Source: Candidatus Peregrinibacteria bacterium (GTDB lineage: Bacteria > Patescibacteriota > Gracilibacteria > Peribacterales > Peribacteraceae). From it: 64,000 bases of DNA. A program made the translations under genes and the position numbers. Positions 5,427-56,663 of the stretch are shown in pieces (positions within the stretch are counted from its first letter, which is position 1; each line of letters begins with the position of its first letter). A model generated the notes under the pieces. The model made no database searches, had not been told where the DNA came from, and worked only from the letters and a program-made list of their open reading frames with translations. The stretch is taken from NCBI GenBank assembly GCA_030649955.1, contig JAUSFD010000029.1:62001-126000 (forward strand). The letters are read 5' to 3'.

Positions 5427-5697
5427 ACAGGGCTTTGAGTGCACTTTCGGCATCATCAAATGGGCCCAGTACATCTTCGTCTGCCATAGCTTCCGCTATG
5501 ATTTTGCGCGTCTTCGGGGAAGCCTTTCGCAGAGCAGGCAATGAAAACGGCAGAGTCTGACCAAGTGCGATTTGTGCGTAGAAAAGCCGAATGGCAGAGG
5601 ACGTGTCGAGTCCCAGTGCAAAGAGGACTTTTTCCGCCTCGCGTTTCAGCTTGGCTGGAAGTCGGATATGGAGATTGGCAGCGGATGATTTCTTCAT
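5413..5697 (-). CDS. RelB/DinJ-family antitoxin
   Basis: 94 residues. The N-terminus (LHIRLPAKLKREAEKVLFALGLDTSSAIRLFYAQIA) is the ribbon-helix-helix DNA-binding and dimerisation domain of DinJ/RelB antitoxins; the C-terminal part wraps the toxin. The ATG at 5697 is preferred over the GTG at 5703 because a TATACT box ends 6 bases before it. RHH antitoxins usually repress their own operon. Confidence 0.88.
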   Translation of the reverse strand: MKKSSAANLHIRLPAKLKREAEKVLFALGLDTSSAIRLFYAQIALGQTLPFSLPALRKASPKTRKIIAEAMADEDVLGPFDDAESALKALYAAT

Positions 5698-5703
5698 GTT
5701 CAC

Positions 5704-5732
5704 AGTATAACCGTTTGTGTTGCAGAAGACAA
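5704..5732 (-). promoter_or_regulatory. Promoter of the relB/yafQ-type operon
   Basis: On the minus strand TTGTCT, a 17-bp spacer and TATACT precede the antitoxin ATG by 6 bases. The transcript would start at or within a base of the start codon. Confidence 0.6.
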
Positions 5733-5758
5733 GACAAAAAGTTCACATCACGTCAGTC

Positions 5759-5786
5759 TTGATTTTTGGATATTTTTGGATAAAAT
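5759..5786 (+). promoter_or_regulatory. Promoter of the Fic gene
   Basis: TTGATT, a 16-bp spacer, TAAAAT, then 6 bases to the ATG at 5793. The geometry implies a leaderless transcript. Confidence 0.65.
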
Positions 5787-5792
5787 ATAGAC

Positions 5793-6863
5793 ATGGTTCC
5801 CTTCGACTCTCCTCAGGACAGGCGACAGAGCTCACCACAGGCTATGAAAGAACTCAAGAAAATCGATGATCTGCAGGCAGAGATCGATACCTTCCGTCCT
5901 TTCAGCCAGGAGCTCCTCGCGCTGTGGCAAGAGAGACTCCGCATTGATTGGACGTACAACTCCAATGCCATCGAAGGTAACACGCTCACGTATGGTGAGA
6001 CGGCGTTCTTCCTGCGCGAAGGACTCACATCGGAAGGGAAGCCCCTGAAAGATTACGTCGAGGCAAAGAACCACGCTGAGGCCATTGATTACCTGCGTGA
6101 AGTGGTGCAATCGAAACGAAGGCTCACAGAGGGCTTCATCAAAGCACTTCATGGATTACTCTTGCGCGACATTGACCACACCATCGCAAAGAGCGCAGAT
6201 GGAAAGCTGATCCATAAGCCTCTCAGCGCGGGGAAGTACAAGGTACGCCCGAATCACGTCCTCACCCTCTCGGGCACGATGCACAAGTACACGGAACCGA
6301 TCAAAGTCCTTGATGAAATGCAGAATCTTCTCCGGTGGCTCCAGGAGAACAGGAAGCTGCATCCTGTGGAACGCGCTGCCCTCTTCCACTACCGCTTCGT
6401 CTGCATTCACCCGTTCGACGATGGTAATGGCCGTATGGCGCGGCTCCTCATGAACTTGCTCCTCATGCAGGCAGGCTATCCGCCTTGTGTCGTGCGAAAC
6501 AGCAAACGCAGGGAGTACCTGCAGAGTCTTGAGCGCGCGGACAGTACGGGATCCACAGATGAGTTTCTGCACTGTATCGCTGGTGAGCTCATCCAAACAG
6601 AAGAGACCATGTTGAGGGTCTTGGAAGGCAAACCACTGCCCCCCATTCCAGGGGAAAAGCTCCACCGTGATGCACGCAGGGAACTCATTCTGAAGGCTAT
6701 CGGCACGGACACGCTCTCCATCAGTCAGATCAGTGATCGCGTGCTTCGCATCAAGCGACCAACGCTCAAGTATGATCTGCGTGCACTCGTGCGTGCAAGA
6801 AAGCTCAGAAAGAGTGGTGTTGGAAAAGGCGTGGTCTACACACGCACTGAACGTGCAGGATAG
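5793..6863 (+). CDS. Fic-domain protein (putative AMP-transferase)
   Basis: 356 residues. The Fic active-site motif HPFDDGNGRMAR is at 206-217 with the catalytic histidine at 206. The auto-inhibitory motif SNAIEGN at 57-63 matches (S/T)xxxE(G/N) and lies N-terminal to the Fic core, as in class II Fic proteins, so activity is expected to be self-restrained. Residues 280-350 look like a winged helix (ISQISDRVLRIKRPTLKYDLRAL). Fic enzymes mostly AMPylate proteins. It stands alone with its own promoter and no separate antitoxin gene, in line with the built-in inhibitory helix. Confidence 0.93.
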   Translation: MVPFDSPQDRRQSSPQAMKELKKIDDLQAEIDTFRPFSQELLALWQERLRIDWTYNSNAIEGNTLTYGETAFFLREGLTSEGKPLKDYVEAKNHAEAIDYLREVVQSKRRLTEGFIKALHGLLLRDIDHTIAKSADGKLIHKPLSAGKYKVRPNHVLTLSGTMHKYTEPIKVLDEMQNLLRWLQENRKLHPVERAALFHYRFVCIHPFDDGNGRMARLLMNLLLMQAGYPPCVVRNSKRREYLQSLERADSTGSTDEFLHCIAGELIQTEETMLRVLEGKPLPPIPGEKLHRDARRELILKAIGTDTLSISQISDRVLRIKRPTLKYDLRALVRARKLRKSGVGKGVVYTRTERAG

Positions 6864-6923
6864 CATTCTTTCCTCGGTTTCTTCGGTCTCCTTCCAGATG
6901 AGGATTGAACAGGAACAACCCTC

Positions 6924-7937
6924 TCACTTGAGGTACAGGAGCGGATTCTTCTTCACGCCATTGAGAATCACCTCGAAGTGAATGTGGATCCCCGTCTGAC
7001 CGTAGACGAGACCGGTGTTGCCCATCCAGGAAATCACCTGACCGCGCGTCACCTTGTCGCCTTCCTTCACGTAGAGCTCTTTGTTGTGTCCGTAGACCGT
7101 GATGAGCCCGTTGCCATGGTCGACCTCGATGACGTTGCCGTAGCCACCGTTCCACCCTGTGTCTGCGCGCAGCACCGTGCCGCCTTCGGCAGCGAAGATG
7201 GGCCCGCCGCCCTTGGTCTGAATATCCACCGCCCAGTGACCGGCGTGGTAGTACTGTGTGTAGAAGCAGTTGTTGCAGGGCATCTGCAGCACGCCCTCAG
7301 TCGCCGTCGCCTCGACAGCTTCTGGCGGTGCAGGTGTCCCAGCGGGTGTGGTCGGCTGCGGTGTGGTGGGATCTTTCTTCACCGGCGGTTTCTGTGCGAC
7401 CTGCGTGGGCACGACGATCGGCCTTCCTCCCGGGATGATGAGCTGCTGTCCTGCGACGATGAATCCTCCGTCGATGGAGTTCTGGCGCGAGATCTCTTCC
7501 ACGGGGATATCGTAGAGCTGGGAAATCGCTGAGAGGTTCTGGCCGCGCTTCACGGTGTGGAGCACGCCATTCACTGGGAGGATGAGGAGCTCCTGGTCCG
7601 GACGAATGGGGACGTTTGGCTGCAGATTGTTCGCCCACTGGATCGTCTGCACCGCGATACCGTAGCGCTGGGCAATGCGCTCCAAGCTGTCGCCGTCCTT
7701 CACCTGATGCACGATCCCCTCTGTGTACGCGAGGCGCGCGCCCTGCTCGCCCAGCGAGGAGCTCTTCATGAGGAACCCATCCTCGACGAAGAGGAATTGG
7801 TCCGGTGATTCCTCCGCCTCTGGGACGGAGAGTGCGGCCTTGGGCACGTACGGCGGCAGGAGCGACCCCACGACGAAGACCACCGCGCAGAGTATGCGGA
7901 CACGAAGCGAGAGCCAGCGCTGAGGAGGGGTGTGCAC
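6924..7937 (-). CDS. Secreted LysM-M23 murein endopeptidase
   Basis: 337 residues from a GTG at 7937. A membrane or signal segment spans about 12-30, two LysM domains span about 76-121 and 126-169, a Pro/Thr linker follows to about 215, and an M23 (LytM) domain ends the protein. The M23 zinc ligands are present: H234 and D238 (HWAVD) and H318/H320 (HIHFE). It should cleave peptide cross-links in peptidoglycan outside the membrane. Two cysteines (CNNC, about 221-224) precede the catalytic domain, an uncommon detail. It starts 15 bp after the carboxypeptidase gene, so both probably share a transcript. Confidence 0.92.
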   Translation of the reverse strand: MHTPPQRWLSLRVRILCAVVFVVGSLLPPYVPKAALSVPEAEESPDQFLFVEDGFLMKSSSLGEQGARLAYTEGIVHQVKDGDSLERIAQRYGIAVQTIQWANNLQPNVPIRPDQELLILPVNGVLHTVKRGQNLSAISQLYDIPVEEISRQNSIDGGFIVAGQQLIIPGGRPIVVPTQVAQKPPVKKDPTTPQPTTPAGTPAPPEAVEATATEGVLQMPCNNCFYTQYYHAGHWAVDIQTKGGGPIFAAEGGTVLRADTGWNGGYGNVIEVDHGNGLITVYGHNKELYVKEGDKVTRGQVISWMGNTGLVYGQTGIHIHFEVILNGVKKNPLLYLK

Positions 7938-7952
7938 GGGAGGGATGGGGGC

Positions 7953-8828: not shown

Positions 8829-8935
8829 CCCGGGCAGTCTAGAGCGTTTTGCGAGCGCGGGGAAGAAACCAACGATATTTTTTAGAATAAAAACACCCTC
8901 TGTCAATTTTTGAGAAGAAGCCTCATTCGAACGGA

Positions 8936-9874: not shown

Positions 9875-9938
9875 GGGGATATGATAGGCGATTCTCTCCG
9901 GGGACGGGAATTTCATGAGAATTCATTTCTGCAGACAG

Positions 9939-10030: not shown

Positions 10031-10076
10031 CGATGTATCGGCTCTCAGTTCAGCCTTCTACCGTATACTGAGTCCG

Positions 10077-11195: not shown

Positions 11196-11222
11196 TCGCG
11201 GTCCGTCGTGTACACTTTCCCC

Positions 11223-12543: not shown

Positions 12544-12598
12544 AAGAGAAGTCTACAACACGGCTGCGCCCTGCCATCGGCTCAACTACACTTACACT

Positions 12599-13466: not shown

Positions 13467-13593
13467 GACGATCCTTTCGCCGCGGGCAGAAAGCCCGTTC
13501 TGCATCAAAAAATTCTTCTACCTATCAGAGCGCTTTTTCTAGGCGCGGCTGGATCGTTTTCAAACGTGACGAGCGCGCTGCTACACTCACCGC

Positions 13594-14694: not shown

Positions 14695-14749
14695 ATCGCT
14701 GCTCCAGGGGTACCTTCCCCCGCTCTTGAGAACGGGGGATAATGCTGCC

Positions 14750-16763: not shown

Positions 16764-16814
16764 TCCCCCCAGTATACCAGAAATGGCGTGCTGCTGCTAT
16801 GCCTCGGACAAGGG

Positions 16815-16931: not shown

Positions 16932-16968
16932 CCTTGGTCTCCTCCCCGTCAACGCGTACCCTCACTCC

Positions 16969-20663: not shown

Positions 20664-20691
20664 ATTTTAAATTAAAATCAATTTTTGTCAA
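20664..20691 (-). promoter_or_regulatory. Promoter of the orphan gene at 18763-20655
   Basis: Minus-strand TTGACA, a 16-bp spacer, TAAAAT and 8 bases to the ATG. One of the strongest promoters in the window. Confidence 0.7.
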
Positions 20692-24625: not shown

Positions 24626-24643
24626 AGGTCTATACTGCGGATG

Positions 24644-26746: not shown

Positions 26747-26774
26747 ATTGTGCGTCATTCTCTATGTCTGTCAA
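26747..26774 (-). promoter_or_regulatory. Promoter of the 68-residue gene
   Basis: Minus-strand TTGACA, 16-bp spacer, CACAAT, then 6 bases to the ATG at 26740. Confidence 0.6.
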
Positions 26775-29580: not shown

Positions 29581-29608
29581 ATTATACCATATTATTTACT
29601 TATTACAA
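29581..29608 (-). promoter_or_regulatory. Promoter of the orphan gene at 28169-29572
   Basis: Minus-strand TTGTAA, 16-bp spacer, TATAAT, then 8 bases to the ATG. Confidence 0.7.
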
Positions 29609-32270: not shown

Positions 32271-32542
32271 ACTGAGCAGTATAGCAAGCTGTTACCCTGC
32301 CATGGTAAACCGCAGACAAGCAAAGAGCGGCATAAAAGGGGGGTTGAAGACACTTGGTTACAGACACAAACTCCTAAGGAGTCCCGGTAAAGCAGCGCGT
32401 ATATTGTTCAGCACGGCCTGCCAGAATTCAATAGCCTCCATACGCATTCCAGAGTGTGCAATCTGCGATAGGCCACGCAAACATTGACAGAAAGTTGACG
32501 ATATGTATATATTGTCATATAAACTTCTCTTTACCAATTACT
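32271..32542. other. Gap with promoter-like sequences only
   Basis: No gene seen between the divergent genes. Near its end are TTGACA (32484-32489) with TATATA, and TTGACG (32496-32501) with TATAAA 16 bp later, which could drive the downstream orphan gene. Confidence 0.4.
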
Positions 32543-33788: not shown

Positions 33789-33835
33789 GCCGAGGACTGT
33801 ACCAAGCGTTCGACTCCGTTCTCAACTGGTATTTC

Positions 33836-36803: not shown

Positions 36804-36859
36804 TTCGCGGTATAGGTTGATGTTCCCTCCCCGCGCAACTCGCGCTATCCTCACACTCG

Positions 36860-37505: not shown

Positions 37506-38600
37506 TCACAGTGTCTTGAGCTTCCGCCACTCCTCCACAATCCTCCTCTCCTCTCGGCTCAGCTTCGTCGGTATCTCCACCTGCACGGTCACGTAGTGAT
37601 CTCCCATTTTACTGCTGCTGAGGACGGGCATCCCCTGCCCGCGGATGCGGAAGACCTGCTGAGGCTGCGTCCCCTCGGGAACTTTCAGCATCATGCTGTC
37701 GTGCACAGTCTCCACGGAGACTTCTGCACCCAGGAGCGCATCGAGGACAGAGATCTTCTTCACCGAGCGCACATCATCACCATCTCGCACGAACTCAGGA
37801 TGGGGCGTGACGCGGACCGTGACGTAGAGGTCCCCTGCAGGAGCCTTGCGCCTCCCCGCATCGCCGAGCCCGCGCATCCGGAGCGTCTGACCATCGTGGA
37901 GACCTGCGGGGATACCAATAGTGAGCTCAACAGTCTGCTGCACTCTCCCCTCGCCATCGCACTTCTTGCACGGCTTCTCTGGCACCTTCCCGGACCCTCT
38001 GCACTTCGAACACACGTAGCGCTGCTGAATCGTGCCGAAAAAGGATGCTGTGGAGCGTGTTACCTGCCCCGTGCCACCGCACTCCGTGCACGTGATGAGC
38101 GCCGCTCCCCCCTCCGCACCCGTTCCCTCGCACCGCTCGCAGGGAGCGAGCTTCCGGACGGAAATAATCTTCGTCGCGCCCTTCACGACATCCATGAAGG
38201 GGACGGTGATCGAAACTTCGCGATCAGCTCCGGCGTCATCTGCAACCGCTCCTCTCCTCCCGCCCTGCGCGCTCCCGCCGAAGAAGCTCTCGAAAATATC
38301 GGAGAAGCCCGACATGTCACCACCGGAGAACGAGGAGAAATCGAATCCGCCGAACCCGTTGCCTCCACCACCTTGTGGGCCGTTCCCACCGACACCGTAC
38401 TGGTCGTACATCTGCTTCTTCTTCGGATTGCTGAGCACTTCGTACGCCTCGTTCACCTCCTTGAACTTCCGCTCTGCATCCTTGTCACCTTTGTGCTTGT
38501 CCGGATGGAGCTCCTTGCTGAGCTGGCGGTACGCCTTCTTGACCTCCTCCGCAGATGCGCCCTTCTTCAAGCCGAGCACCTCGTAGAAATCCTTTGCCAT
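37506..38600 (-). CDS. dnaJ: Chaperone DnaJ
   Basis: 364 residues from ATG 38600, 7 bases after TATGCT. The J domain has the HPD motif (ELHPDKHKG), then a Gly/Phe-rich region, four zinc-binding CxxCxGxG repeats (CERCEGTG, CTECGGTG, CSKCRGSG, CKKCDGEG) and the C-terminal substrate domain. It is the co-chaperone of DnaK; neither dnaK nor grpE is in the window. Confidence 0.97.
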   Translation of the reverse strand: MAKDFYEVLGLKKGASAEEVKKAYRQLSKELHPDKHKGDKDAERKFKEVNEAYEVLSNPKKKQMYDQYGVGGNGPQGGGGNGFGGFDFSSFSGGDMSGFSDIFESFFGGSAQGGRRGAVADDAGADREVSITVPFMDVVKGATKIISVRKLAPCERCEGTGAEGGAALITCTECGGTGQVTRSTASFFGTIQQRYVCSKCRGSGKVPEKPCKKCDGEGRVQQTVELTIGIPAGLHDGQTLRMRGLGDAGRRKAPAGDLYVTVRVTPHPEFVRDGDDVRSVKKISVLDALLGAEVSVETVHDSMMLKVPEGTQPQQVFRIRGQGMPVLSSSKMGDHYVTVQVEIPTKLSREERRIVEEWRKLKTL

Positions 38601-38743
38601 CTCGCACAGCATACCGAATCGCGCCGTCCCCGCCATCCCTGATGGAAGCCAAAAACTGCGCGCCTCCTGTCAAGATAACCTCCGGGCAGAGAATGGGCAG
38701 GAAGAAGGAAAAATGGTATAATGTTCGGAACACATCAATATCC

Positions 38744-39781: not shown

Positions 39782-39809
39782 GGCACCATTTATCCTGTAT
39801 ACTGTCCAG

Positions 39810-40352: not shown

Positions 40353-40449
40353 AAGCGACGTTCTACGACGTCGTAGAACGGGCACGATTTTGCCGTGGGA
40401 AAACACGCCCCTTTGTTGTCGCTGCAGACCAGTCTGCTACCGTGATGCG

Positions 40450-42203: not shown

Positions 42204-42428
42204 TCACACCGGTGCAAGTTTCCCTTCCATGGAGAACACCTCGGTCAAATCCACACCCAAGGCTGAGGAGATTTTGTAGGCGAGGAGAATCGAGGGGTTC
42301 GTGCGGCCGCGCTCGATCGACATGATCGTCTGGCGACTGACTCCCGTGCGGAGCGCCAGCTCCTCCTGCGTCATGTTGCGCTCGAAGCGCAGGCGGCGGA
42401 TCGCGTTCTTCAGGAGGATGGTCGACAT
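42204..42428 (-). CDS. Small XRE-family helix-turn-helix regulator
   Basis: 74 residues, almost entirely one XRE domain (LRFERNMTQEELALRTGVSRQTIMSIERGRTNPSILLAYKISSALG). Such single-domain regulators bind DNA as dimers; the target is unknown. TATTGT lies 23 bases before the ATG. Confidence 0.88.
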   Translation of the reverse strand: MSTILLKNAIRRLRFERNMTQEELALRTGVSRQTIMSIERGRTNPSILLAYKISSALGVDLTEVFSMEGKLAPV

Positions 42429-42535
42429 GGAGAGGAGTGGAGAGGTTGCCTACAATAGCGAGGGGGGAGCCAGCGCGCTAGTGCTCCTTAAGCTGGCGCA
42501 TTGTACTGATGCAATTGCCAAGGGCAAGGGCAATG

Positions 42536-43951
42536 TCAGGGGTACTGTACACTTAACTCTCGCCGCTGCTGCTTCTTCATACGCCGCTCGAGAATCCAGA
42601 TGATACCGATGCAGAGGAGGAAGAGGAGGAGTCCCCCCGTCCCGACGATGGAGAGGACCCACTCCATCTGATCGCGCAGGAGGAACCCAAGCCCGAGGAG
42701 GAGTGACGCCCACACAATCGTGCCGCCGAGCATGAAGAGGAAGTAGGTGTGCTTTGGCATCGCTACCGTCCCTGCGACGAACGCAGAGAACGGACGGACT
42801 CCCCCCACGAACTGTCCCAGGAACACGCTCAGGCTCCCGAAGCGACGCATGAACGCATCCACCGCGCGCAGGCGGTGCTCGGAGAGGTAGAACCGATGGG
42901 CGATGCGCCTGCCGTAGAGCTGCCCAATCATGTAGAAGAACGTGTTCCCGGTAGCCGATCCGGCAATGGCAGCGCAGAAGAAGAACGCGGCCATCTCGAC
43001 ATCACCGATGAGCGCACCCGCGACGATGAGCGCGAGCACGCCGGGCGAGAAGAAGCTCAGGGGAGGGACGGACTCTATGAGCGCGAAGAGGAACACGACG
43101 ATCGCACCGTACTGCTTCACCGTTGCCGTAACGAACGCCGGATCCCCAAAGCGCTCTATCGGGAAATCGCGTAGGAGGAGGACCGCAGAGAGGGGGAGCA
43201 AATACACGGCGAACCACGAGAGCTTCCAGTGACGCACCCACTTCTGGAGGAGCAGGATCGCGACGAGACTCGCCGCGAAGGACGTAAGGAATCCCGCAGT
43301 GACAATGGGGGCTGGGGGGAGCGTGATGTCTCCCTGCCACACCTCCATAGAAGTGAGGAGTACAGCACCCGCGATGACGGGCACCGCCATGAGGAACGAG
43401 AAATTGAGTGCATCTTTGGGTGAGAGTCCCATTGCTCTCCCCGCGCTGATCGTCATCCCGGAGCGCGAGAGGGAGGGGAAGAGTGCAAACGTCTGGGCCA
43501 GCCCGATCATGACGGCATGGAGTGGGCGGATGCTCGTGAGAACGCTCCTGGCCGGTAATGCCTCTGTCATGAGGAGGACCGCGGCGGAGAGGCTGAGGCC
43601 GAGCGCAATCGCCTCCATCGAGCGGAACTGTTCCGCGATCACTTCCTCGAGGAAGTACCCAGCGAGTGCTGCGGGGATGGTTGCAATGATGAGCATGAGG
43701 AGGAGCCTGCGCTCTGCACGATCGCCACCGAAGACCGCCCTGCACATCGAGAGATACCTCTTACCGTACACGAGGAGAAGAGCGAGCAGGCTCCCCGCGT
43801 GGAGCATCACATCGAAGCCAAGGAGATTGCGTGCAGAGAGTGGAATCGCGAGCAGCTCCTCCGCGAGCACCAGGTGACCGGAGCTCGAGATGGGGAGGAA
43901 TTCGGTGAAACCTTGGAGGATGCCGAGGAAGACGGCCTGCAGGAAAGTCAT
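42536..43951 (-). CDS. Fusion of undecaprenyl-diphosphatase (UppP/BacA) with a DedA-family domain
   Basis: 471 residues from ATG 43951 (the frame continues to 44050 through a repeat). Residues 1-260 are UppP: GFTEFLPISSSGHL at 14-27 and PSLSRSGMT at 159-167 are the two catalytic motifs. Residues 265-450 are DedA/SNARE-associated: LIESVPPLSFFSPGVLALIVAGAL at 291-314, GSATGNTFFYMIGQLYGRR at 331-349 and GQFVGGVRPFSAFVAGTVAM at 379-398. UppP makes undecaprenyl phosphate at the outer face; DedA members return it to the inner face. One protein could therefore couple both steps of carrier recycling. The basic C-terminus is cytoplasmic. Confidence 0.9.
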   Translation of the reverse strand: MTFLQAVFLGILQGFTEFLPISSSGHLVLAEELLAIPLSARNLLGFDVMLHAGSLLALLLVYGKRYLSMCRAVFGGDRAERRLLLMLIIATIPAALAGYFLEEVIAEQFRSMEAIALGLSLSAAVLLMTEALPARSVLTSIRPLHAVMIGLAQTFALFPSLSRSGMTISAGRAMGLSPKDALNFSFLMAVPVIAGAVLLTSMEVWQGDITLPPAPIVTAGFLTSFAASLVAILLLQKWVRHWKLSWFAVYLLPLSAVLLLRDFPIERFGDPAFVTATVKQYGAIVVFLFALIESVPPLSFFSPGVLALIVAGALIGDVEMAAFFFCAAIAGSATGNTFFYMIGQLYGRRIAHRFYLSEHRLRAVDAFMRRFGSLSVFLGQFVGGVRPFSAFVAGTVAMPKHTYFLFMLGGTIVWASLLLGLGFLLRDQMEWVLSIVGTGGLLLFLLCIGIIWILERRMKKQQRRELSVQYP

Positions 43952-44008
43952 GGGCGTTTCGATGAGGATACGCGAGAGAGTTGGGAGATGACTAGACCCC
44001 CCTGGGGG

Positions 44009-44124
44009 AAATCCCAAAACACAAAACTCGAAAACCCAAACAATTTCCAATACCCAACTCTCAACATTTTGGCACTTGGCATTTGAAGCTTTTTTTGGAT
44101 TTGGGTTTTGTGTTTTGGGATTTT
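44009..44124. repeat. CCCAAA/TTTGGG inverted repeat, second copy
   Basis: The left arm AATCCCAAAACACAAAAC (44010-44027) is exactly complementary to GTTTTGTGTTTTGGGATT (44105-44122); further CCCAAA words follow inward. It lies upstream of the UppP-DedA gene and downstream on the other strand of nothing coding, in the divergent gap with the Hsp20 gene. Confidence 0.8.
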
Positions 44125-44230
44125 CTCTCCATTGCTCAACAAACCCTAGAACCGACTAGCTCACAACTCTGCAAAGAGCACCACCTCTCCTTTTTGCAGG
44201 GAGAACCCGAATATTGGTACGATGGGGCGA

Positions 44231-44680
44231 ATGACTCCTTCCCCCTTCCACGGCATCTTCAGTGCGCTCCAGGAGGGAGCAGGCCGCGGAGGCTCACTCT
44301 TTGGCGGTGATGACCCCACGCCTCCACCAGCGTCCAGTGCCGGAACCAGCGCCGTTGGCAGGGTCGCCGTCGACATCTACGAGCAGGACGACTACTACAT
44401 CATCAAGGCCCCCATTGCGGGCGTGCGCCTGTCTGATCTGGATATCGAAGTAAACGAGAACGTCATCACGATCCGCGGCATGCGGCGCCAGACGGATGCC
44501 CTCCCCCAGGACCAGTACTACCTCCAGGAGTGCTTCTGGGGCGAGTTCAGCAGGTCGGTAACGCTCCCCACCGTCGTGGATCCTCGCAAGATAAAGGCAA
44601 CCTTCAATAAGGAGAACGTGCTGAAGATCCTCGTGCCTAAGGAGGAGAGGGTGAAGATCGTGAAAATCAACGAAGCGTAA
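44231..44680 (+). CDS. Small heat-shock protein, Hsp20 family
   Basis: 149 residues from ATG 44231, 7 bases after TACGAT; an ATG at 44222 lies inside that box. After a glycine/proline-rich N-terminus (1-45) an alpha-crystallin domain runs to about 140 (VDIYEQDDYYIIKAPIAGVRLSDLDIEVNENVITIRG, then LQECFWGEFSRSVTLPTVVDPRKIKATFNKENVLKILVPK). It holds unfolding proteins without ATP. The conserved final IxI motif may be VKIVKINEA. Confidence 0.93.
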   Translation: MTPSPFHGIFSALQEGAGRGGSLFGGDDPTPPPASSAGTSAVGRVAVDIYEQDDYYIIKAPIAGVRLSDLDIEVNENVITIRGMRRQTDALPQDQYYLQECFWGEFSRSVTLPTVVDPRKIKATFNKENVLKILVPKEERVKIVKINEA

Positions 44681-44694
44681 CACGAACCGGAGAA

Positions 44695-44769
44695 CGTTTA
44701 TTCGTTTATTGGTTTACTCGTTTACTGGAACGAGCGAATCAACGAATAAACGAGTAAACGAATCAACGA
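44695..44769. repeat. Octamer-built inverted repeat, copy 2
   Basis: CGTTTATT CGTTTATT GGTTTACT CGTTTACT followed after a short centre by GCGAATCAACGAATAAACGA-type words. It lies just after the Hsp20 stop, between convergent genes. Confidence 0.85.
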
Positions 44770-44802
44770 AAGAATATGCAGAAGAACAGAAATCGAGTGT
44801 TC

Positions 44803-45114
44803 TCACTTCCTCTTCTTCCGTCGTATCGTCTTCTTCACGACTCTCTCCTTCCGCACTTTCCCCTTCGTCATCGGATACGACTTCAGGTGCACGATCACTT
44901 CGCCCGGAACTTTCTCGAGAGACTCGTAGACATCCATCCCTCCCATGAAGCGCCAGTCGGCTGCACGGAGGAGTTGCTCGAAGGCTTTCACCTGAGCGCG
45001 CGCTTCCTTGCGTACCTTGGGATCGCTCAAGTCGCTGTCGAGCATGCTCCACAGCTTCTGCTGGAGAGAGTAGAGGTCCTGAACAACCTCGAGTGCCTGG
45101 GTGGTCTTGGGCAT
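44803..45114 (-). CDS. Small basic protein of unknown function
   Basis: 103 residues. Two helices (about 5-52, with SLQQKLWSMLDSDLSDPKVRKEARAQVKAFEQLL) are followed by a short domain and a very basic tail (KVRKERVVKKTIRRKKRK), which suggests nucleic-acid binding. Not recognised. Confidence 0.65.
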   Translation of the reverse strand: MPKTTQALEVVQDLYSLQQKLWSMLDSDLSDPKVRKEARAQVKAFEQLLRAADWRFMGGMDVYESLEKVPGEVIVHLKSYPMTKGKVRKERVVKKTIRRKKRK

Positions 45115-45162
45115 TGGTGTTTGTTGGGAATTTCGTCACCATTCTATTCATTTTCATGCCAA

Positions 45163-45222
45163 TTGTCAAAGGAGCCGAGGATGCGTACACTGTACACGGG
45201 CTCAGGAGACGACTTCCTGAGC
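45163..45222 (+). promoter_or_regulatory. galU promoter and 5'-terminal leader hairpin
   Basis: TTGTCA (45163-45168), 17-bp spacer and TACACT (45186-45191) place the transcript start near 45198. The leader then begins with GCTCAGGA - GACGACT - TCCTGAGC (45200-45222), an 8-bp hairpin at the very 5' end, which could stabilise the mRNA or regulate it. The galU ATG is 29 bases further on. Confidence 0.5.
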
Positions 45223-45251
45223 GGTATTCCGTACTTGTGTAACTACACACT

Positions 45252-46085
45252 ATGAAGCTCCGTCAGGCAATCCTCCCGGTCGCGGGACTCGGCACGCGGT
45301 TCCTCCCCTGGACGAAGGTCGTGCCGAAGGAGCTCCTGCCCATCGGCAACCAACCGATCATCGCGCTGCTCGTCGATGAGTGCATGAGTGTGGGGATTAC
45401 GGACATCTGCTTCGTCATCAGCAAGGGGAAGGAGGCGATCCCGCAGTACTTCCAGAGTCATCCGGAGCTGGAGAAGACCCTCGCGAAGAAGGGGAAGAGC
45501 GATGCGCTCAAGGAGCTCAACCGTTACGACAACGTGCGCTTCTCCGTCGTCTACCAGGATGAGCAGCACGGTGACGGGCACGCGATCCTCCAGGCCGCAC
45601 CGTGGGTGAAGGATGATGTGATCGCCATCCTCTTTGGTGATGATCTCATTTCCGGCGCGGAGCATTCTGGACTCAAGCAGCTCGCGAATGCCTACGCTCA
45701 GGTGCAGGAATCTCTGGAGGAAGGCAGCCCTCTACCCGCAATTCTCTCCCTGGAGAATGTGCCAAGGGAACTTGTCAACAAGTATGGAATAGTTGACGTC
45801 TCTGCGCACGCACCGCGCTTGCACCGTGTGAAAGGTCTCGTGGAGAAGCCGCATCCCAACGATGCACCTTCCACATTGGGCATCGTCGGCAAGTACCTGA
45901 TCCCGCGCTCGACCATCGACCTGCTCCCGAGTGTGACGAGCGGACACGGCGGAGAGATCCGTCTCATCGACGCACTGAAGGCGCAGTTGAAAACGACGCC
46001 GATTTTCGGCTACGAATTCCTGGGCAAGCGCTTCGACACGGGGACACCCGAGGGCTACAAAGAGGCAGTGCACGCGTTGGGGTAG
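45252..46085 (+). CDS. galU: UTP-glucose-1-phosphate uridylyltransferase
   Basis: 277 residues. The nucleotide-binding start LPVAGLGTRFLPWTKVVPKELLPIGNQPII and later FGDDLI, GIVDVS, VEKPHP and FLGKRFDTGTPEGYKEAV match GalU throughout. It makes UDP-glucose for glycan and lipid glycosylation, consistent with the glycosyltransferases in the window. Confidence 0.95.
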   Translation: MKLRQAILPVAGLGTRFLPWTKVVPKELLPIGNQPIIALLVDECMSVGITDICFVISKGKEAIPQYFQSHPELEKTLAKKGKSDALKELNRYDNVRFSVVYQDEQHGDGHAILQAAPWVKDDVIAILFGDDLISGAEHSGLKQLANAYAQVQESLEEGSPLPAILSLENVPRELVNKYGIVDVSAHAPRLHRVKGLVEKPHPNDAPSTLGIVGKYLIPRSTIDLLPSVTSGHGGEIRLIDALKAQLKTTPIFGYEFLGKRFDTGTPEGYKEAVHALG

Positions 46086-46163
46086 TCTACAGAGTTCACA
46101 CACTGCGCGACTGACGCACACGAAAATGAAATCACCACACACAGATCTGAATGTAGATTTTAG

Positions 46164-46191
46164 TTGACAAGAGGGAATTCACAACTAGGAT
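46164..46191 (+). promoter_or_regulatory. Promoter of the orphan gene at 46226
   Basis: TTGACA, 16-bp spacer, TAGGAT. The ATG at 46190 overlaps the -10 box, so translation should start at the next in-frame ATG, 46226. Confidence 0.6.
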
Positions 46192-46225
46192 GCACGGGAA
46201 TTTTCACCCCTTTTCCCCTTTTGCG

Positions 46226-46684
46226 ATGTCTGAAACTGGCCGCCCCGAAGATATACCTGTTGAGACTTCTCCTGCAGTCTCGGTTGAGACAGTGAATCCA
46301 ACAGAAACACCTACAGGAAATCACATCTTCCCTATCAAGGTTTCCGCAAGGGAACTCCTCTCAGGCGTATCTGGTAATCCCCTGCGACCCCCTGCAAATT
46401 TGCCATCCGTAGCAAGCGCTTCGATGGCTTCGCTCTCTGCGAAGAAGATACCATTGCGCGGTCTGCGGCTCACACCTTCACCGGAGTGTGAGTGCACCCT
46501 CACTTGCGAAGCTGCCAACGGCACAGTTCTCACCGAAGAACATAGGGCACAAATTGCCAGAGATGTGAGTTATAACCTCACCATGCATGCTCGGACCGAT
46601 TACGAACATGGAATCGATCGCTCTAAGCCTCCTGTGCCACAGAATCGGATCGCCAGAATAGAGAATATGGGAATGGTGCAGTAG
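46226..46684 (+). CDS. Small orphan protein
   Basis: 152 residues from ATG 46226. The first 50 residues are acidic, Thr/Pro-rich and probably disordered; a compact part follows from about 75 (LTPSPECECTLTCEAANGTVLTEEHRAQIARDVSYNLTMHARTDYEHG) with three close cysteines. No family recognised. The stop directly abuts the convergent uvrB stop with no gap. Confidence 0.62.
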   Translation: MSETGRPEDIPVETSPAVSVETVNPTETPTGNHIFPIKVSARELLSGVSGNPLRPPANLPSVASASMASLSAKKIPLRGLRLTPSPECECTLTCEAANGTVLTEEHRAQIARDVSYNLTMHARTDYEHGIDRSKPPVPQNRIARIENMGMVQ

Positions 46685-48661
46685 TTACATCTCTCTGCGA
46701 AGCAGTTCAATCTCGTCACGGAGATCAGCTGCTTTCTCGAATTCGAGATTCTGGGCGGCGAGCTCCATCTGCTTCTCGAGCTCGTCCATGAGGCGCTTCT
46801 TCTCGTCCTTGGGGATCTTCTGGTGATCGTACTTGGGTCGGCGCAGCTCCAGCTTGCGCGACTCCTCGGAGATATCGTGCACCGCCTTCTGGATCGACTT
46901 CGGCGTGATGCCGTGCTCCTTGTTGTGCGCGTCCTGAATCGAGCGGCGACGGTTCGTCTCTGCAATAGCAGCCTCCATGGCGACGGTCATCTTGTCCGCG
47001 TAGAGCGTGACATGTCCGTTGAGGTTGCGTGCGGCGCGTCCAATCGTTTGGATGAGCGCATCCCGCGAGCGGAGGAAACCCTGCTTATCGGCATCGAGGA
47101 TGGCGATGTAGCTCACCTCTGGGAGGTCCAGACCTTCGCGGAGGAGGTTGATACCAACGAGGATGTCGATGTCGCCCGTTCGCAACTGCCGCAGGATTTC
47201 GATACGCTCGAGGGTCTCCACGTCGCTGTGGAGGTAGCGGACCTTGAAGTTCGCCTCCTGCAGGTATTTCGTGAGGTCCTCTGCCATCTTCTTCGTGAGT
47301 GTTGTGATGAGGGAGCGCTCGCCGCGCTTGATGGTCGCCTGTATCTCCGCCGTGATGTCATCGATCTGGTGCTTCGAGGGCTTCACCGTCACGGGTGGAT
47401 CGAGGAGCCCCGTGGGGCGGATGATCTGCTCCACGAGTGACTCCTTGGGCGTGTGCTCGTACTCGTACCGCGCGGGGGTAGCGGACACATAAATGCGCTG
47501 ACCCACGCGTTGCTCGAACTCCGCGAATTTGAGCGGGCGGTTGTCCATGGCGCTCTGCAGGCGGAAGCCGTAGTCGATGAGGGTCTGCTTGCGGCTGCGG
47601 TTCCCCTCGTGCATGCCCCCCACCTGTGGAATCGTGATGTGGGACTCGTCGATGATGAGGAGAAAATCCTTCGGGAAGTAGTCGAGGAGTGTCGATGGTG
47701 GTGTGCCGGGCACCTGATCGCCCAGGTAGCGCACGTAGTTCTCGATGCCCGTGCAGTAGCCCGTCTCCTTGAGCATCTCGATGTCGTACTCCGTGCGCGT
47801 ACGGATGCGCTCCGCCTTCACGAGTTCATTCATCTTCAAGAGTTCCTTCTCCCGAACATCGAGCTCTGTGCGAATGCCATCCACGGCACGATCGATCTTC
47901 TCCTTCGTGGTGACGTTATGGGCGGCTGGGTAGATCGATACATCTTGGAGGTCCTGGATCAGTTCCCCAGTGAAGCTATCGACCTCCTGGATCACCTCGA
48001 TCTCGTCGAAGGGGAGCTCCAGGCGGATCACCGTGTCGCCGCTGGGAGGGAAGATTTCCACCGTATCCCCGAGCACGTGGTACATGCCCTGCTTGAATTC
48101 GATGGAACTTCGGCGGTACTGGATATCCGTGAGGCGGCGCAGGAGCTGATCGCGCTTGATGGGCATACCGCGCTCCAGCTTGATCGCGAGTGCTTCGTAA
48201 TCCTCGACATTGCCGAGGCCGTAGATGCACGACACAGAGGCGATGATGATCACGTCCCGGCGCGTGAGGAGGTTGAAGGTCGCCGCGTGCCGGTACTTCT
48301 CGATCTCCTCGTTGATGCTCGCGTCCTTCTCGATGTAGGTATCCGTCGTGGGCAGGTACGCCTCTGGTTGGTAGTAGTCGTAGTACGAGACGAAGTAGGA
48401 GATGGCGTTCTCTGGAAAGAACCCCTGGAACTCGGAGCAGAGCTGCGCAGCGAGGGTCTTGTTGTGCGCCAATACAAGCGTGGGGCGCTGTACCTGCTGG
48501 ATGATGTTCGCCATCGTGAAGGTCTTGCCGGTCCCGGTCGCACCCAGGAGTGTCTGATGCTTCTCCTTCTTCGCGAGCCCTGCGACGAGCTTCACTATGG
48601 CCTTCGGCTGGTCGCCTGTGGGCTGGAACGGTGAAACCAGTTTGAATGCTTTCTGCTTCAT
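46685..48661 (-). CDS. uvrB: Excinuclease ABC subunit B
   Basis: 658 residues, full length. Walker A LLGATGTGKTFT near 40-50; the damage-sensing beta-hairpin region YYDYYQPEAYLPTTDTYIEKD near 95-115; helicase motifs later, including LREGLDLPEVS; and the C-terminal UVR domain (QMELAAQNLEFEKAADLRDEIELL). It verifies damage and recruits UvrC in nucleotide excision repair. No uvrA or uvrC in the window. Confidence 0.97.
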   Translation of the reverse strand: MKQKAFKLVSPFQPTGDQPKAIVKLVAGLAKKEKHQTLLGATGTGKTFTMANIIQQVQRPTLVLAHNKTLAAQLCSEFQGFFPENAISYFVSYYDYYQPEAYLPTTDTYIEKDASINEEIEKYRHAATFNLLTRRDVIIIASVSCIYGLGNVEDYEALAIKLERGMPIKRDQLLRRLTDIQYRRSSIEFKQGMYHVLGDTVEIFPPSGDTVIRLELPFDEIEVIQEVDSFTGELIQDLQDVSIYPAAHNVTTKEKIDRAVDGIRTELDVREKELLKMNELVKAERIRTRTEYDIEMLKETGYCTGIENYVRYLGDQVPGTPPSTLLDYFPKDFLLIIDESHITIPQVGGMHEGNRSRKQTLIDYGFRLQSAMDNRPLKFAEFEQRVGQRIYVSATPARYEYEHTPKESLVEQIIRPTGLLDPPVTVKPSKHQIDDITAEIQATIKRGERSLITTLTKKMAEDLTKYLQEANFKVRYLHSDVETLERIEILRQLRTGDIDILVGINLLREGLDLPEVSYIAILDADKQGFLRSRDALIQTIGRAARNLNGHVTLYADKMTVAMEAAIAETNRRRSIQDAHNKEHGITPKSIQKAVHDISEESRKLELRRPKYDHQKIPKDEKKRLMDELEKQMELAAQNLEFEKAADLRDEIELLRREM

Positions 48662-48787
48662 GCGTTCGGGTATGGTAGCAGAATAACGGGCTGGGTTACA
48701 GGGGGGATCCCTTTGAGCCCATGAAGGTGAAATTTGCGTTTATTCCATGTATCGGGCATAAATGCATTTCGTTACGCCTATTCGCCA

Positions 48788-50089
48788 ATGATCGACCTCG
48801 TTGACCTTAGAAATCGGCCAGACGCCTACGCAGATGCCGCGAAGAAGAAGCGGATCGGCGTCGATGTGCACGCGTTCCTGAAGCTCGATGACCAGCGCAG
48901 GGCGCTCCTTCCAGCAGTGGAGCAGATGCGCGCGAAGAGAAACGCCGTGAGCAAGCAGGTGCCCACGATGAAGGGAGACGAGAAGCAGAAGGTGATCGCG
49001 GAGATGAAGCAGCTCTCCGAGGAACTCAAAGTGAAAGAGGAGCAGTTGAACGCGATGGAAGAGGAGTGGAAAACCCTGCAGCTCATGCTCCCCTCGATCC
49101 CGCTCCAGAGGGTGCCTGTGGGGAAAGACGACACGGAGAACGAGGAAATACGCACCTGGGGCGAGAAACCGACGTTCGCCTTCGAGCCGAAGGACCACGT
49201 GATCCTCGGCGAGGAGCTCGACATCATTGATATCCCGCGGGGCGTGAAGGTCGGGGGGAGCAGGATGTACTTCCTGAAGGGTGATGGCGCACGCCTGGAG
49301 CTCGCAGTCCTCCTCTTCACGCTCGATCACCTGCGGAAGAAGGGCTTCACGATGTTCCTGCCGCCGGTACTCGCGAACTATCAAGCAATGATGGGCACAA
49401 GCTACTTCCCGGGCGGTGAGGAGCAGGCGTACGCCGTGGGCGTGCAAAAGAAGCGTGGGGAGCCAATCGAGAGCGACGATCTCTACCTTATTGGCACTTC
49501 CGAGGTCTCTGTTACGAGTTACCACAGCGACGAGCTCCTGAAGATCGAGGAATTGCCCAAGCGCTACTGCGGCCTCAGTAACTGCTTCCGTCGGGAAGCG
49601 GGGACGTACGGAAAGGATACGAAGGGCCTCTACCGCATCCACCAGTTCCAGAAGGTGGAGCAGGTCGTACTCTGCGAAGCGGATGCTGACGTGAGCGCGG
49701 AGATGCACAAGGAACTCCTCACAAATGCGGAGGAAGTCCTGCAAGCAATGAAGCTCCCGTACCGCGTCGTCGATGTGTGCACCGGCGACATGGGCAGGGG
49801 ACAGATCTACAAGAACGACATCGAGACGTGGATGCCCAGCCGCGGAAACTACGGCGAGACGCACAGCTGCTCGACCTTCTACGATTTCCAATCCCGCAGG
49901 CTTAACATCAAATATGAGACGGCAGACGGGCAGAAGAAATTCGTCCACACGCTGAACAACACCTGCATCGCATCGCCGCGCATCCTCATCCCCATTCTCG
50001 AGATCTACCAGAATGCGGATGGATCGGTGACGATCCCGGAAGTCCTGCGTCCGTATATGGCCGGTCAGGAACGCATCGCTCATGCGTAA
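48788..50089 (+). CDS. serS: Seryl-tRNA synthetase
   Basis: 433 residues from ATG 48788 (MIDLVDLRNRPDAY). The N-terminal long coiled-coil arm (about 35-105) binds tRNA-Ser; class II motifs follow: LYLIGTSEVSVTSYHSDELL, FRREAGTYGKDTKGLYRIHQFQKVEQ (motif 2) and LNNTCIASPRILIPILEIYQN (motif 3). It charges tRNA-Ser. Confidence 0.97.
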   Translation: MIDLVDLRNRPDAYADAAKKKRIGVDVHAFLKLDDQRRALLPAVEQMRAKRNAVSKQVPTMKGDEKQKVIAEMKQLSEELKVKEEQLNAMEEEWKTLQLMLPSIPLQRVPVGKDDTENEEIRTWGEKPTFAFEPKDHVILGEELDIIDIPRGVKVGGSRMYFLKGDGARLELAVLLFTLDHLRKKGFTMFLPPVLANYQAMMGTSYFPGGEEQAYAVGVQKKRGEPIESDDLYLIGTSEVSVTSYHSDELLKIEELPKRYCGLSNCFRREAGTYGKDTKGLYRIHQFQKVEQVVLCEADADVSAEMHKELLTNAEEVLQAMKLPYRVVDVCTGDMGRGQIYKNDIETWMPSRGNYGETHSCSTFYDFQSRRLNIKYETADGQKKFVHTLNNTCIASPRILIPILEIYQNADGSVTIPEVLRPYMAGQERIAHA

Positions 50090-50685: not shown

Positions 50686-50691
50686 AATTCT

Positions 50692-50719
50692 AATTTAAAC
50701 TTTTGTAAATATAAGTCAA
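50692..50719 (-). promoter_or_regulatory. Promoter of the orphan gene at 50122-50685
   Basis: Minus-strand TTGACT, 16-bp spacer, TAAATT, then 6 bases to the ATG. Confidence 0.7.
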
Positions 50720-50755
50720 TTCCCATCCATGGCCCTCTGCAGGGACAATCCTCCC

Positions 50756-51151: not shown

Positions 51152-51153
51152 CC

Positions 51154-51207: not shown

Positions 51208-51275
51208 CCCTCTGGGTCTGCGTTTGCGAGAAAAAGGGTAGCGGACTGCCTCCCCCTGGGGCGTATACTGCCCGC

Positions 51276-51686: not shown

Positions 51687-51765
51687 GCCGCATCCTCATT
51701 CACCCTTCGATGAACTCAGGGTCATCTCTCTCTTTAAGAGATCTTGCATTCTGCCTCTGCTGCTT

Positions 51766-52866: not shown

Positions 52867-52903
52867 AGGAGACCGATGAGACCGAGGAACGAGAAACGAG
52901 AAA

Positions 52904-52984
52904 CGTTTACTCGTTTATTAGTTTATTCGTTTACTCGCTGTGCAGCAATTCGAATAAACGAGTCAACGAATAAACGAATCAACG
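52904..52984. repeat. Octamer-built inverted repeat, copy 3
   Basis: CGTTTACT CGTTTATT AGTTTATT CGTTTACT, a centre with TGTGCAGC, then CGAATAAACGAGTCAACGAA-type words. It lies 38 bases after the glycosyltransferase stop and before a gene on the same strand. Confidence 0.85.
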
Positions 52985-53179
52985 GTATCTGGAGATGTGT
53001 CGTTCCTCGGTCTCATCGGACTCCTCCGAAAAATCCACACCATCTTCAAGCATGTCCTTCACTCTCCTATTACAATGCACACCCTACACCACTTCGCCCC
53101 GTCTGCGGGGCTACGCGGTGCGAGACGAGGAAATAATTGGTTCTCTCGAGTACTTTCCATTTTTCTGCATCCTGGAACC

Positions 53180-55552: not shown

Positions 55553-55994
55553 CAAGATATCCATTGGACCCTGCGTTCCCACGCGACATCTCCCACACGG
55601 ACTTCAGGATGCGATCGGAGAGCTGGTGTATCACCGGATGGATCATGAACATCGGAACCCCTGATGGCACTTGCTCAATTTCCCGCAAAAGAGGATGGGA
55701 GGAGGTCACTTCCACGCAGGATCCCTCTTGATGGTCAAATACCTGGAAGGTAATCCCCAGCGCTGCGAGGCGTTCATCCCGCTGCCGGAGCACCGCAGCA
55801 ATGAGATCAGCAATGGTCTTCTCAGGGAGATAGAATCCGGTTGGCGGGATCTCCACCTCTGCCTTGAGTCCGGGACAAGGGGGATACGTCACTGTGAGGA
55901 ATGAGGTCTTCCTCCGGGTCCAGTACGTCGCGAGCATGCCATCGGAGAGCTCTTTCGTATGCGATGCTCTGCCGTTTGAGTCGGGGGTACCCAT
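55512..55994 (-). CDS. Orphan protein overlapping the amidase-SpoIID gene
   Basis: 160 residues. A compact alpha/beta domain (LTVTYPPCPGLKAEVEIPPTGFYLPEKTIADLIAAVLRQRDERLAALGITFQVF) without recognised family and a serine-rich tail. The last 41 bp overlap the 3' end of the convergent gene. ATG 55994 is the longest start; ATG 55937 is possible. Confidence 0.6.
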   Translation of the reverse strand: MGTPDSNGRASHTKELSDGMLATYWTRRKTSFLTVTYPPCPGLKAEVEIPPTGFYLPEKTIADLIAAVLRQRDERLAALGITFQVFDHQEGSCVEVTSSHPLLREIEQVPSGVPMFMIHPVIHQLSDRILKSVWEMSRGNAGSNGYLATASPALSSGSSS

Positions 55995-56020
55995 AGGAGT
56001 GAGGGAAATGAAAAAATCTC

Positions 56021-56051
56021 CTCTCCGCGGTAGGCGGAGGAGGGGGAAAGT
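56021..56051 (-). terminator. Rho-independent terminator for the ProX-like gene
   Basis: Minus strand: CTCCTCCGC - CTACC - GCGGAGAGGAG followed by ATTTTTT. It lies about 105 bases after the stop at 56157. Confidence 0.7.
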
Positions 56052-56156
56052 CAGATCAAGGTCACCCTCTCACGCCTGGCGCGAGACGACGATGACGAGA
56101 CCGACGACGAGGTTCTTCCTGATCACGAGCGCATCGTACATTCAGATAATTTTCTG

Positions 56157-56663
56157 TCAAGAAACAGCCTCGACCCTTCCGGGAACATCACAAATCCGCA
56201 CGGAATGCCCTGTAGCCTGGAGAAAGCGCTCGATACCGTCACGTGGGATGACGAGCGTCGCCGTGTTCACGAGCGGATGGCACCGCAGGGCTTCACTCCT
56301 CCACAGTTCCTCGTCGATGACGACTTCGACACGGTGCTCCGGATCGTTCATGAGCCCCAGGAGCGTGACGGAACCCGGTGTGAGTTTGAGATACTCCATA
56401 AGTCGATCGGGGGAGGCAAAAGAGAGCCCCTTCGTTCCGAGGACATCGGAGAGAGCTTTCAGGTCCACCTGCTTCTTGTGCCCGACGCTCACGAGGATGT
56501 GGCGCTTCCCGGGCTTGTCGCGAAGGAAGAGGTTCTTCGTATCTGCGCTGCCGGGCATCGGTGGAAGTACACGCTCGGCTTCTTCACACGTGAAGACGGC
56601 AACATGATCGAAGCGTTGGAAGTCGATCTGGTGGGCGCGGAGGAAGGACTCGATGTCGGGCAT
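56157..56663 (-). CDS. ProX/PrdX-type aminoacyl-tRNA editing protein (YbaK superfamily)
   Basis: 168 residues; TATTCT lies 6 bases before the ATG on the minus strand. The family order is clear: SADTKNLFLRDKPGKRHILVSVGHKKQVDLKALSDVLG, then LSFASPDRLMEYLKLTPGSVTLLGLMND and HPLVNTATLVI. Stand-alone ProXp-ala enzymes hydrolyse Ala-tRNA-Pro, correcting errors of prolyl-tRNA synthetase. Confidence 0.9.
   Translation of the reverse strand: MPDIESFLRAHQIDFQRFDHVAVFTCEEAERVLPPMPGSADTKNLFLRDKPGKRHILVSVGHKKQVDLKALSDVLGTKGLSFASPDRLMEYLKLTPGSVTLLGLMNDPEHRVEVVIDEELWRSEALRCHPLVNTATLVIPRDGIERFLQATGHSVRICDVPGRVEAVS

Follow-up and report, generated by a model that had tools for sequence, protein, structure and literature searches.

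A TANNNT box beside the start codon and a changed 16S anti-Shine-Dalgarno tail in a family of Peregrinibacteria

Many genes of a Candidatus Peregrinibacteria genome (G000; 1.67 Mb in 34 contigs, 98.6% complete) have a TANNNT box ending six to eight bases before the start codon and no Shine-Dalgarno (SD) sequence. The pattern was noticed in a stretch of 64,000 nucleotides, bases 62001-126000 of contig C1 (the window), for which a preliminary description listed 27 such starts. It is clear that this architecture is real and genome-wide. The probable explanation, judged from sequence comparison, is that a sigma-70-type -10 element sits at the start codon and gives rise to leaderless mRNAs for a large minority of genes. 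RNA polymerase would start at or within about two bases of the AUG or GUG, leaving an mRNA without a leader. The ribosome would then have to take up the start codon at the 5' end directly, presumably through the 70S or IF2/initiator-tRNA pathway by which leaderless mRNAs are known to be translated. Downstream operon genes, often joined by an ATGA overlap, would presumably be translated by termination-coupled re-initiation. SD pairing would seem to be unused, with SD motifs depleted and the anti-SD core of the 16S changed.

The box across the genome

Genes were called by hexamer coding potential in 488 kb of G000, window included, which gave 386 genes. Starts were picked from coding potential alone, ignoring upstream sequence; 383 were usable and three genes had no usable candidate. 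The 27 starts first listed were hand-picked, so these list-independent tests were added. Throughout, the box is TANNNT and the spacer is the number of bases between its last T and the start codon.

A box at spacer 6-8 precedes 87 of the 383 coding-only starts, against 14.0 +/- 3.5 (maximum 25) in 500 dinucleotide shuffles. The claim that the pattern reaches beyond the window to the whole genome therefore holds when set against shuffled upstream regions. Internal in-frame ATGs are boxed at the same spacers in 16/1906 cases. At spacers 5-10 the counts before coding-only starts are 6, 42, 28, 17, 14 and 13. The spacing had been called constant and it does peak at 6-8, but the tail to 10 means that it is not strictly so. 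The reverse complement, A...TA, forms no such peak before starts.

The box is also returned by a blind search. Expectation-maximization (EM) motif search from many seeds in G000 finds TA[CT]A[CA]T mainly at spacers 6-8, with a log-likelihood gain of 241.9 compared with 37.7-42.5 in five shuffled sets. A comparison of UvrB places G000 in family f1, which holds many genera. Run separately on 315 genes of other family members, the search finds the same motif (gain 216.0 versus 33.4-46.3 shuffled), and the spike is present in each of the four other family sets tested (13/55, 17/55, 18/68 and 38/137 starts boxed). A pool of 748 starts from other families of the class, mixing genomes of very unlike base composition, yields a different AT-rich motif (gain 153 versus 50-60 shuffled). 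Tested genome by genome outside the family, with five sets of fewer than 15 genes left out, the box is clear in G246 (family f4) and G150 (f6). Spikes are borderline in G236 (f14), G128 (f21), G172 (f18) and G211 (f27), with p 0.003-0.04, uncorrected; most AT-rich genomes in this test show no significant spike, the background there being high. Control sets from Actinomycetota (2/13 starts boxed) and Chloroflexota (3/28 versus 0.6 expected) were too small and were not used.

A gene-free count gives a less sharp picture. With both strands of the window scanned, TANNNT-N(s)-ATG has 21 occurrences at s=6 and 22 at s=7, against 3-14 at other s from 0 to 28, but s=29 also reaches 21. The same raw count in the 424 kb outside the window gives 91, 79 and 71 at s=6-8, against 27-84 at other s from 0 to 29. 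GTG and TTG have no clear spacing peak in this raw count. Because the raw peak is weaker outside the window, starts had to be called.

The listed starts

Each of the 27 starts had been described as having TANNNT or a near match 6-8 bases upstream, no SD and, in four cases, a GTG codon. This is accurate. The exact box is found at spacer 6, 7 or 8 before 24 of them, and before the other three a near-miss stands at spacer 6. An SD 4-mer (GGAG, GAGG, AGGA or AAGG) at -18 to -4 is absent from all 27, and the GTG starts are 12599, 14750, 26930 and 40450. The boxes are as follows.

5704..5709, minus strand: -10 box TATACT, spacer 6, start ATG 5697; TTG at the -35 distance
5781..5786, plus strand: -10 box TAAAAT, spacer 6, start ATG 5793, Fic-domain protein
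8836..8841, minus strand: -10 box TAGACT, spacer 7, start ATG 8828, Peptidase_S11
9881..9886, minus strand: -10 box TATCAT, spacer 6, start ATG 9874
10064..10069, plus strand: -10 box TATACT, spacer 7, start ATG 10077, glycosyltransferase
11211..11216, plus strand: -10 box TACACT, spacer 6, start ATG 11223, NAD(P)H-hydrate dehydratase, domain from residue 15
12587..12592, plus strand: -10 box TACACT, spacer 6, start GTG 12599, Cu-oxidase_4
13582..13587, plus strand: -10 box TACACT, spacer 6, start ATG 13594, HD-domain phosphohydrolase
14738..14743, plus strand: near-miss GATAAT (not exact TANNNT), spacer 6, start GTG 14750, Ion_trans
16771..16776, minus strand: -10 box TATACT, spacer 7, start ATG 16763, Peptidase_M23
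16957..16962, plus strand: -10 box TACCCT, spacer 6, start ATG 16969, TPR protein
20664..20669, minus strand: -10 box TAAAAT, spacer 8, start ATG 20655
24631..24636, plus strand: -10 box TATACT, spacer 7, start ATG 24644, TPR protein
26747..26752, minus strand: near-miss CACAAT (not exact TANNNT), spacer 6, start ATG 26740, short open reading frame of 68 aa
26916..26921, plus strand: -10 box TACCAT, spacer 8, start GTG 26930
29581..29586, minus strand: -10 box TATAAT, spacer 8, start ATG 29572
32278..32283, minus strand: -10 box TATACT, spacer 7, start ATG 32270
33796..33801, minus strand: -10 box TACAGT, spacer 7, start ATG 33788, PCMT
36846..36851, plus strand: -10 box TATCCT, spacer 8, start ATG 36860, R3H domain, weak KH match
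38608..38613, minus strand: -10 box TATGCT, spacer 7, start ATG 38600, DnaJ
39798..39803, plus strand: -10 box TATACT, spacer 6, start ATG 39810
40438..40443, plus strand: -10 box TACCGT, spacer 6, start GTG 40450, RecJ
44218..44223, plus strand: -10 box TACGAT, spacer 7, start ATG 44231, HSP20; boxed in 7/8 homology-fixed relative starts, with differing flanks
50692..50697, minus strand: -10 box TAAATT, spacer 6, start ATG 50685; weak coding support for the start
50744..50749, plus strand: near-miss GACAAT (not exact TANNNT), spacer 6, start ATG 50756
51264..51269, plus strand: -10 box TATACT, spacer 6, start ATG 51276
56670..56675, minus strand: -10 box TATTCT, spacer 6, start ATG 56663, tRNA_edit

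The DnaJ domain begins at residue 4, which favours the start at 38600 over one at 38636. The boxed genes within 16969-42120 include TPR proteins, a chaperone (DnaJ) and a repair gene (RecJ).

Share of boxed genes

One aspect that needs care is how many genes carry the box. The preliminary description had most single genes translated from leaderless mRNA. An estimate that scores the box at spacer 6-10 and takes its background from upstream positions gives a corrected excess of 25-30% of all starts and 27-32% of first genes (thresholds 3 and 2). Another estimate uses homology-fixed starts, which are 94 starts of relatives set by alignment with 26 genes of G000 (the per-gene table is limited to genes with at least four relatives). 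Here 45/94 are boxed compared with 5.0 at control spacers, an excess of 43%. A box in G000 also predicts a box in the relative (15/18 versus 30/76, p=0.001, the starts being non-independent). Three unlisted genes of the window entered this comparison.

48788..48790, plus strand: seryl-tRNA synthetase start codon, no exact box at 6-8; relatives boxed at 16/22 homology-fixed starts
45252..45254, plus strand: nucleotidyltransferase start codon, no exact box at 6-8; relatives boxed in 8/16 at 6-8 and 12/16 at 5-11
48659..48661, minus strand: uvrB start codon, no exact box at 6-8; relatives boxed in 2/10 at 6-8 and 7/10 at 5-11

The box excess thus extends to a large minority of genes (25-32%, or 43% at homology-fixed starts), perhaps close to half, and "most", though possible, was an overstatement. 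A mixture model with free start choice put the leaderless fraction at 0.94, but shuffled upstream sequence gave 0.54-0.63. The model was therefore overfit to pyrimidine-rich leaders and was not used. An EM weight of 0.55 at fixed starts was not taken as a fraction either, the calibrated excess being used instead.

Several observations weigh against the leaderless reading or narrow its reach. The excess falls to 11-21% at strict thresholds (about 20% at 4 and 11% at 5), so that a visible box leaves most starts unexplained at lenient or strict settings. The 94 homology-fixed starts, stemming from 26 genes, are not independent. Many loci had been collected around uvrB, and accordingly 68 of the starts trace to six window genes in 42428-48788, namely uvrB and its surroundings. 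Two genes there do poorly, with 42428(-) boxed in 0/7 relatives and uvrB in 2/10. Conservation of the box between orthologs is not significant when coding-only starts are used (p=0.14, 102 pairs).

Operon-inner genes and the upstream tract

Genes inside operons had been said to use ATGA-type overlaps, and they do: 19 same-strand neighbour pairs overlap by exactly 4 bases, against at most four pairs for each of the other distances in the range -60 to +120. Exact boxes at spacer 6-8 precede 5/58 operon-inner genes compared with 74/296 first genes. SD 4-mers are not enriched at the inner genes (3 versus 11 in the control, n=58).

What do the starts without a visible box have? There is no SD at these starts either, only a pyrimidine-rich, G-poor upstream tract. 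Pyrimidine content over -20 to -1 is 0.57-0.65 before boxed, unboxed and inner genes, as against 0.45-0.49 before internal ATGs, and the top enriched upstream 5-mers include CCCCC, TCCCC and CCCTC. Perhaps this tract is the main initiation signal, acting through bS1 binding or the absence of structure, with the leaderless class being minor. The presence of the tract in every class of start and of S1-domain proteins in 40/40 genomes would fit. However, the single strongest 5-mer is TACAC, which is part of the -10 box, the blind motif search also yields that box, and such a tract could arise just because starts avoid G and structure. We regard a leading role for the tract as unlikely, though not to be lightly dismissed.

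Start codons and promoters

Start prediction in this genome is uncertain. Among the window genes called, the coding-only start is the listed position in 16/51 and the listed position is a plausible candidate in 25/51. What if the boxes are promoters of leadered mRNAs whose real start codons lie further downstream, leaving the box-adjacent ATG unused? The low agreement between start calls would allow this. However, protein domains begin at the predicted start in two cases (the N-terminal domain of seryl-tRNA synthetase at residue 1 and DnaJ at residue 4). In addition, the start codons of relatives share an alignment column, with close to half of them boxed (45/94), and internal ATGs are rarely boxed. 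Downstream starts are therefore an improbable answer.

The nature of the box is suggested by its surroundings. Within 173 boxed family genes TTG occurs at offsets -24, -23 and -22 from the box 10, 16 and 14 times, compared with a mean of 2.3 per other offset, and an extended -10 TG is present in 40/173 compared with 10.4. The sigma-70 layout has a spacer of 16-18 bases, and TTG at the -35 distance makes the box resemble a sigma-70-type promoter. This is an enrichment at the level of the set, most single boxes having no TTG there. Boxed starts at spacer 6 are immediately preceded by a pyrimidine in 65/76 cases, versus 343/473 for unboxed starts (p=0.01), which is weakly consistent with transcription starting on the first base of the codon. 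Counting the other way, a pyrimidine precedes the codon at a frequency of 0.73 without a box and of only 0.54 at spacer 7.

Could TANNNT instead be a translation signal within the mRNA and no promoter at all? Its distance from the start codon is fixed and, without SD, some other signal would be needed. A scored-box excess of 14-20% (n=58, thresholds 2-4) is present at operon-inner genes too, although no promoter would be expected there, and this counts against the leaderless reading as well. Nevertheless, the box matches the sigma-70 -10 consensus, is accompanied by TTG at the -35 distance and the extended TG, and in its exact form is rarer at inner than at first genes (5/58 versus 74/296). 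A purely translational role is very improbable on these grounds, and the box looks like a sigma-70-type promoter element.

Shine-Dalgarno pairing and the 16S tail

SD 4-mers are depleted before the coding-only starts of G000 (34/383 versus 71 in the control window). The test has power, because the same procedure recovers SD at 33/47 E. coli starts (control 7) and 121/205 Firmicutes starts (control 29). These results rest on motif counts, unlike the thermodynamic method of PMC10783764. SD 4-mers are not enriched in the class outside the family (40/748 versus 78 in the control).

The 16S of the same genome, to which the preliminary description had pointed as a place to look, has lost its anti-SD core. 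Its 3' end, ACUUUUCCUUA, lacks CCUCC and reads GGAUGGAACUUUUCCUUA against the Rfam consensus GGCUGGAUCACCUCCUUU. CCUCC is absent in 60 of the 63 family genomes with a match (74 searched), the exceptions being G001, G018 and G062. In the class outside the family 171/242 genomes matched, and CCUCC is kept in 42 among the 105 genomes listed; among those listed, loss is near-total in f10 (1/28 keep it), f14 (0/11) and f22 (0/9). In contrast, other classes keep CCUCC in 125/129 genomes with a match, those without it being G278, G312, G355 and G382. That search matched 142/192 genomes, 13 of them from the own class, and G443, with both kinds of tail, was counted as keeping. Tails were classified by eye from listings.

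Erosion of the anti-SD has seemingly happened several times, in f10 and f14 (both with an in-frame TGA in UvrB), in f22 and in parts of f4, f6, f7, f16, f18 and f20, among others. Two assemblies have two 16S copies with different tails (G014, contigs C11 and C14; G443, contigs C2 and C6), reflecting either two operons or a binning mix. Compensated SD motifs that match the changed tail were also considered and rejected: AAGGA, AGGAA, GGAAA and GAAAA occur 4, 5, 4 and 2 times versus 5, 13, 6 and 9 in the control.

The 16S of G000 is split between the ends of contigs C34 and C28, perhaps by an assembly break. A point that counts against the combined picture is that window and 16S are on different contigs, linked by binning and family consistency. 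However, with CCUCC absent in 60/63 family genomes, in variants that are shared and lineage-specific, and with Ca. Peribacter riflensis listed without CCUCC in PMC10783764, an assembly or binning artefact is scarcely credible as the source of the change.

What still constrains the tail? One clue is that tails reading CUCCUU or UUCCUU can pair with a trailer reading AGGGAG or AGGGAA just past the expected mature end (31 family sequences, 23 distinct; alignment A1, loci L002 and L174-L203). Pairing is possible in 97% of cells versus 45-75% when the strands are slid. None of 500 shuffles reaches the observed covariation score. The outer pair, 9-23, is U-A in 12, C-G in 9 and unpaired in 2 of the 23 distinct rows. 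Less favourably, two of the five measures (changed pairs and further pair types) do not exceed the shuffles, only one pair covaries, and G000 is one of the two rows that break it. With a single covarying pair and related rows, the covariation is suggestive only. Since changes in the tail go along with changes in the precursor's 3' trailer, the remaining constraint may be folding of the 16S precursor and not mRNA pairing. A comparable CUCC...GGAG match is present in many CPR (candidate phyla radiation) tails from other classes, and the hairpin may therefore predate loss of the anti-SD.

Order of events and translation factors

Which was lost first, the signal in the mRNA or its partner in the ribosome? 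G246 (f4), with the tail TCACCTCC, has boxes at 15/40 starts (control 3.1) and SD at 4 versus 2. G150 (f6), with the tail AATCCCTCC, has boxes at 14/43 (control 4.1) and SD at 3 versus 4. Inside the family, G018, which has CCTCC, has boxes at 18/68 (control 1.0) and SD at 4 versus 9. Other genera of f4 and f6 have changed 16S tails. Boxes and little or no SD use alongside an intact CCUCC fit abandonment of SD before decay of the anti-SD, in samples that are small and include AT-rich genomes that are hard to read. SD abandonment may therefore have preceded anti-SD loss. If this is true, the sister-family genomes that combine CCUCC with boxes and lack clear SD use would demonstrate that the SD was dropped from mRNAs first and that the anti-SD decayed later.

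A wider proposal is that the whole family translates without SD pairing, by leaderless starts, re-initiation in operons and pyrimidine-rich leaders for the rest, with the tail kept only for trailer folding and SD lost before the anti-SD. This is possible, though we would place it somewhat short of probable.

Translation factors offer few clues. S1 had been named with the 16S as something to look for in this genome, and S1-domain proteins are present. Together with IF3 they are found in 40/40 genomes, and loss of S1 or IF3 as the cause was rejected. S21 has no match in G000 and matches in 15/40 genomes, four above the cut-off, in no clear pattern. Era exceeds the cut-off in 36/40 genomes, but by the joining of neighbouring matches within one frame. 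Among the matches listed the full-length Era model is covered only in G037 (f3) and G048 (f14). Most of the remaining strong matches are the two halves of a single frame of 450-500 aa, which is read as Der. PMC12641178 reports era as mostly missing in CPR classes, so the absence of Era would not alone explain the anti-SD change.

Relation to known systems

Leaderless mRNAs and loss of the CCUCC core occur together in mammalian mitochondria. Mitochondria use organelle transcription, however, and Nanoarchaeia use archaeal promoters, which differ from the apparent bacterial sigma-70-type promoters here. The likeness to Nanoarchaeia lies in the same combination of leaderless mRNAs and CCUCC core loss (PMC10783764).

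Leaderless genes with TANNNT have been described in bacteria (Zheng 2011, PMC3160421; Zhong 2025, PMC12340547) and are strongest in Deinococcus-Thermus; the highest leaderless share that PMC3160421 reports for a bacterium is 46.1%, in D. radiodurans. In the same species PMC12340547 exchanged 50-bp upstream regions in front of eGFP. The genes of G000 are like the TA-led genes of Deinococcus-Thermus and Actinobacteria in that TANNNT, taken as a sigma-70-type -10, lies about 12 bases before the start (from its first T), and the boxed fraction is of the same order (Zheng 2011). Unlike in Deinococcus-Thermus, where a ribosome-binding-site motif is found beside the -10 motif, SD is depleted and the 16S anti-SD is changed in G000.

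The anti-SD half is already known, since PMC10783764 lists Ca. Peribacter riflensis (Peregrinibacteria, 7% SD) as SD-scarce without CCUCC (class iv), along with SR1 Absconditabacteria. G000 is like these class iv organisms in having few SD genes and a 16S without CCUCC. The extracts of that paper give no start architecture for Peregrinibacteria and no -10 box at the start codon. Peribacter genomes are described in PMC4736985, whose text, when searched, gave no hit for Shine-Dalgarno, promoter or start. Among the literature matches listed, no report of leaderless architecture was found for Patescibacteria/CPR, Peregrinibacteria, Peribacter, Gracilibacteria, Saccharibacteria or Absconditabacteria, while the bacteria-wide scan of PMC12340547 may include CPR. 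Each of the two traits, leaderless genes and loss of the anti-SD, has a bacterial precedent.

With both traits in one lineage and neighbouring families at different stages, the order in which an mRNA signal and its ribosomal partner are lost becomes testable. The family is well suited to testing how translation proceeds when the textbook SD signal is missing, and it raises the question of what still constrains the 16S tail once mRNA reading ceases. There is also a practical side. Many starts in this large group of uncultured bacteria may be misplaced by gene finders that expect an SD, and the spacing of the -10 box could be used to correct them.

Other observations

The best named relative found by UvrB is Peregrinibacteria GW2011_GWC2_39_14 (63% identical), in a search that possibly left very near records outside. 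G000 is probably a Peribacter-type member of the Patescibacteria (CPR). UvrB frames with an in-frame TGA occur in five other genomes of the class, as if TGA were sense. In the window, a very long open reading frame without a Pfam match at E 0.001 occupies 58433-63952 on the minus strand and encodes 1789 aa from 63802.

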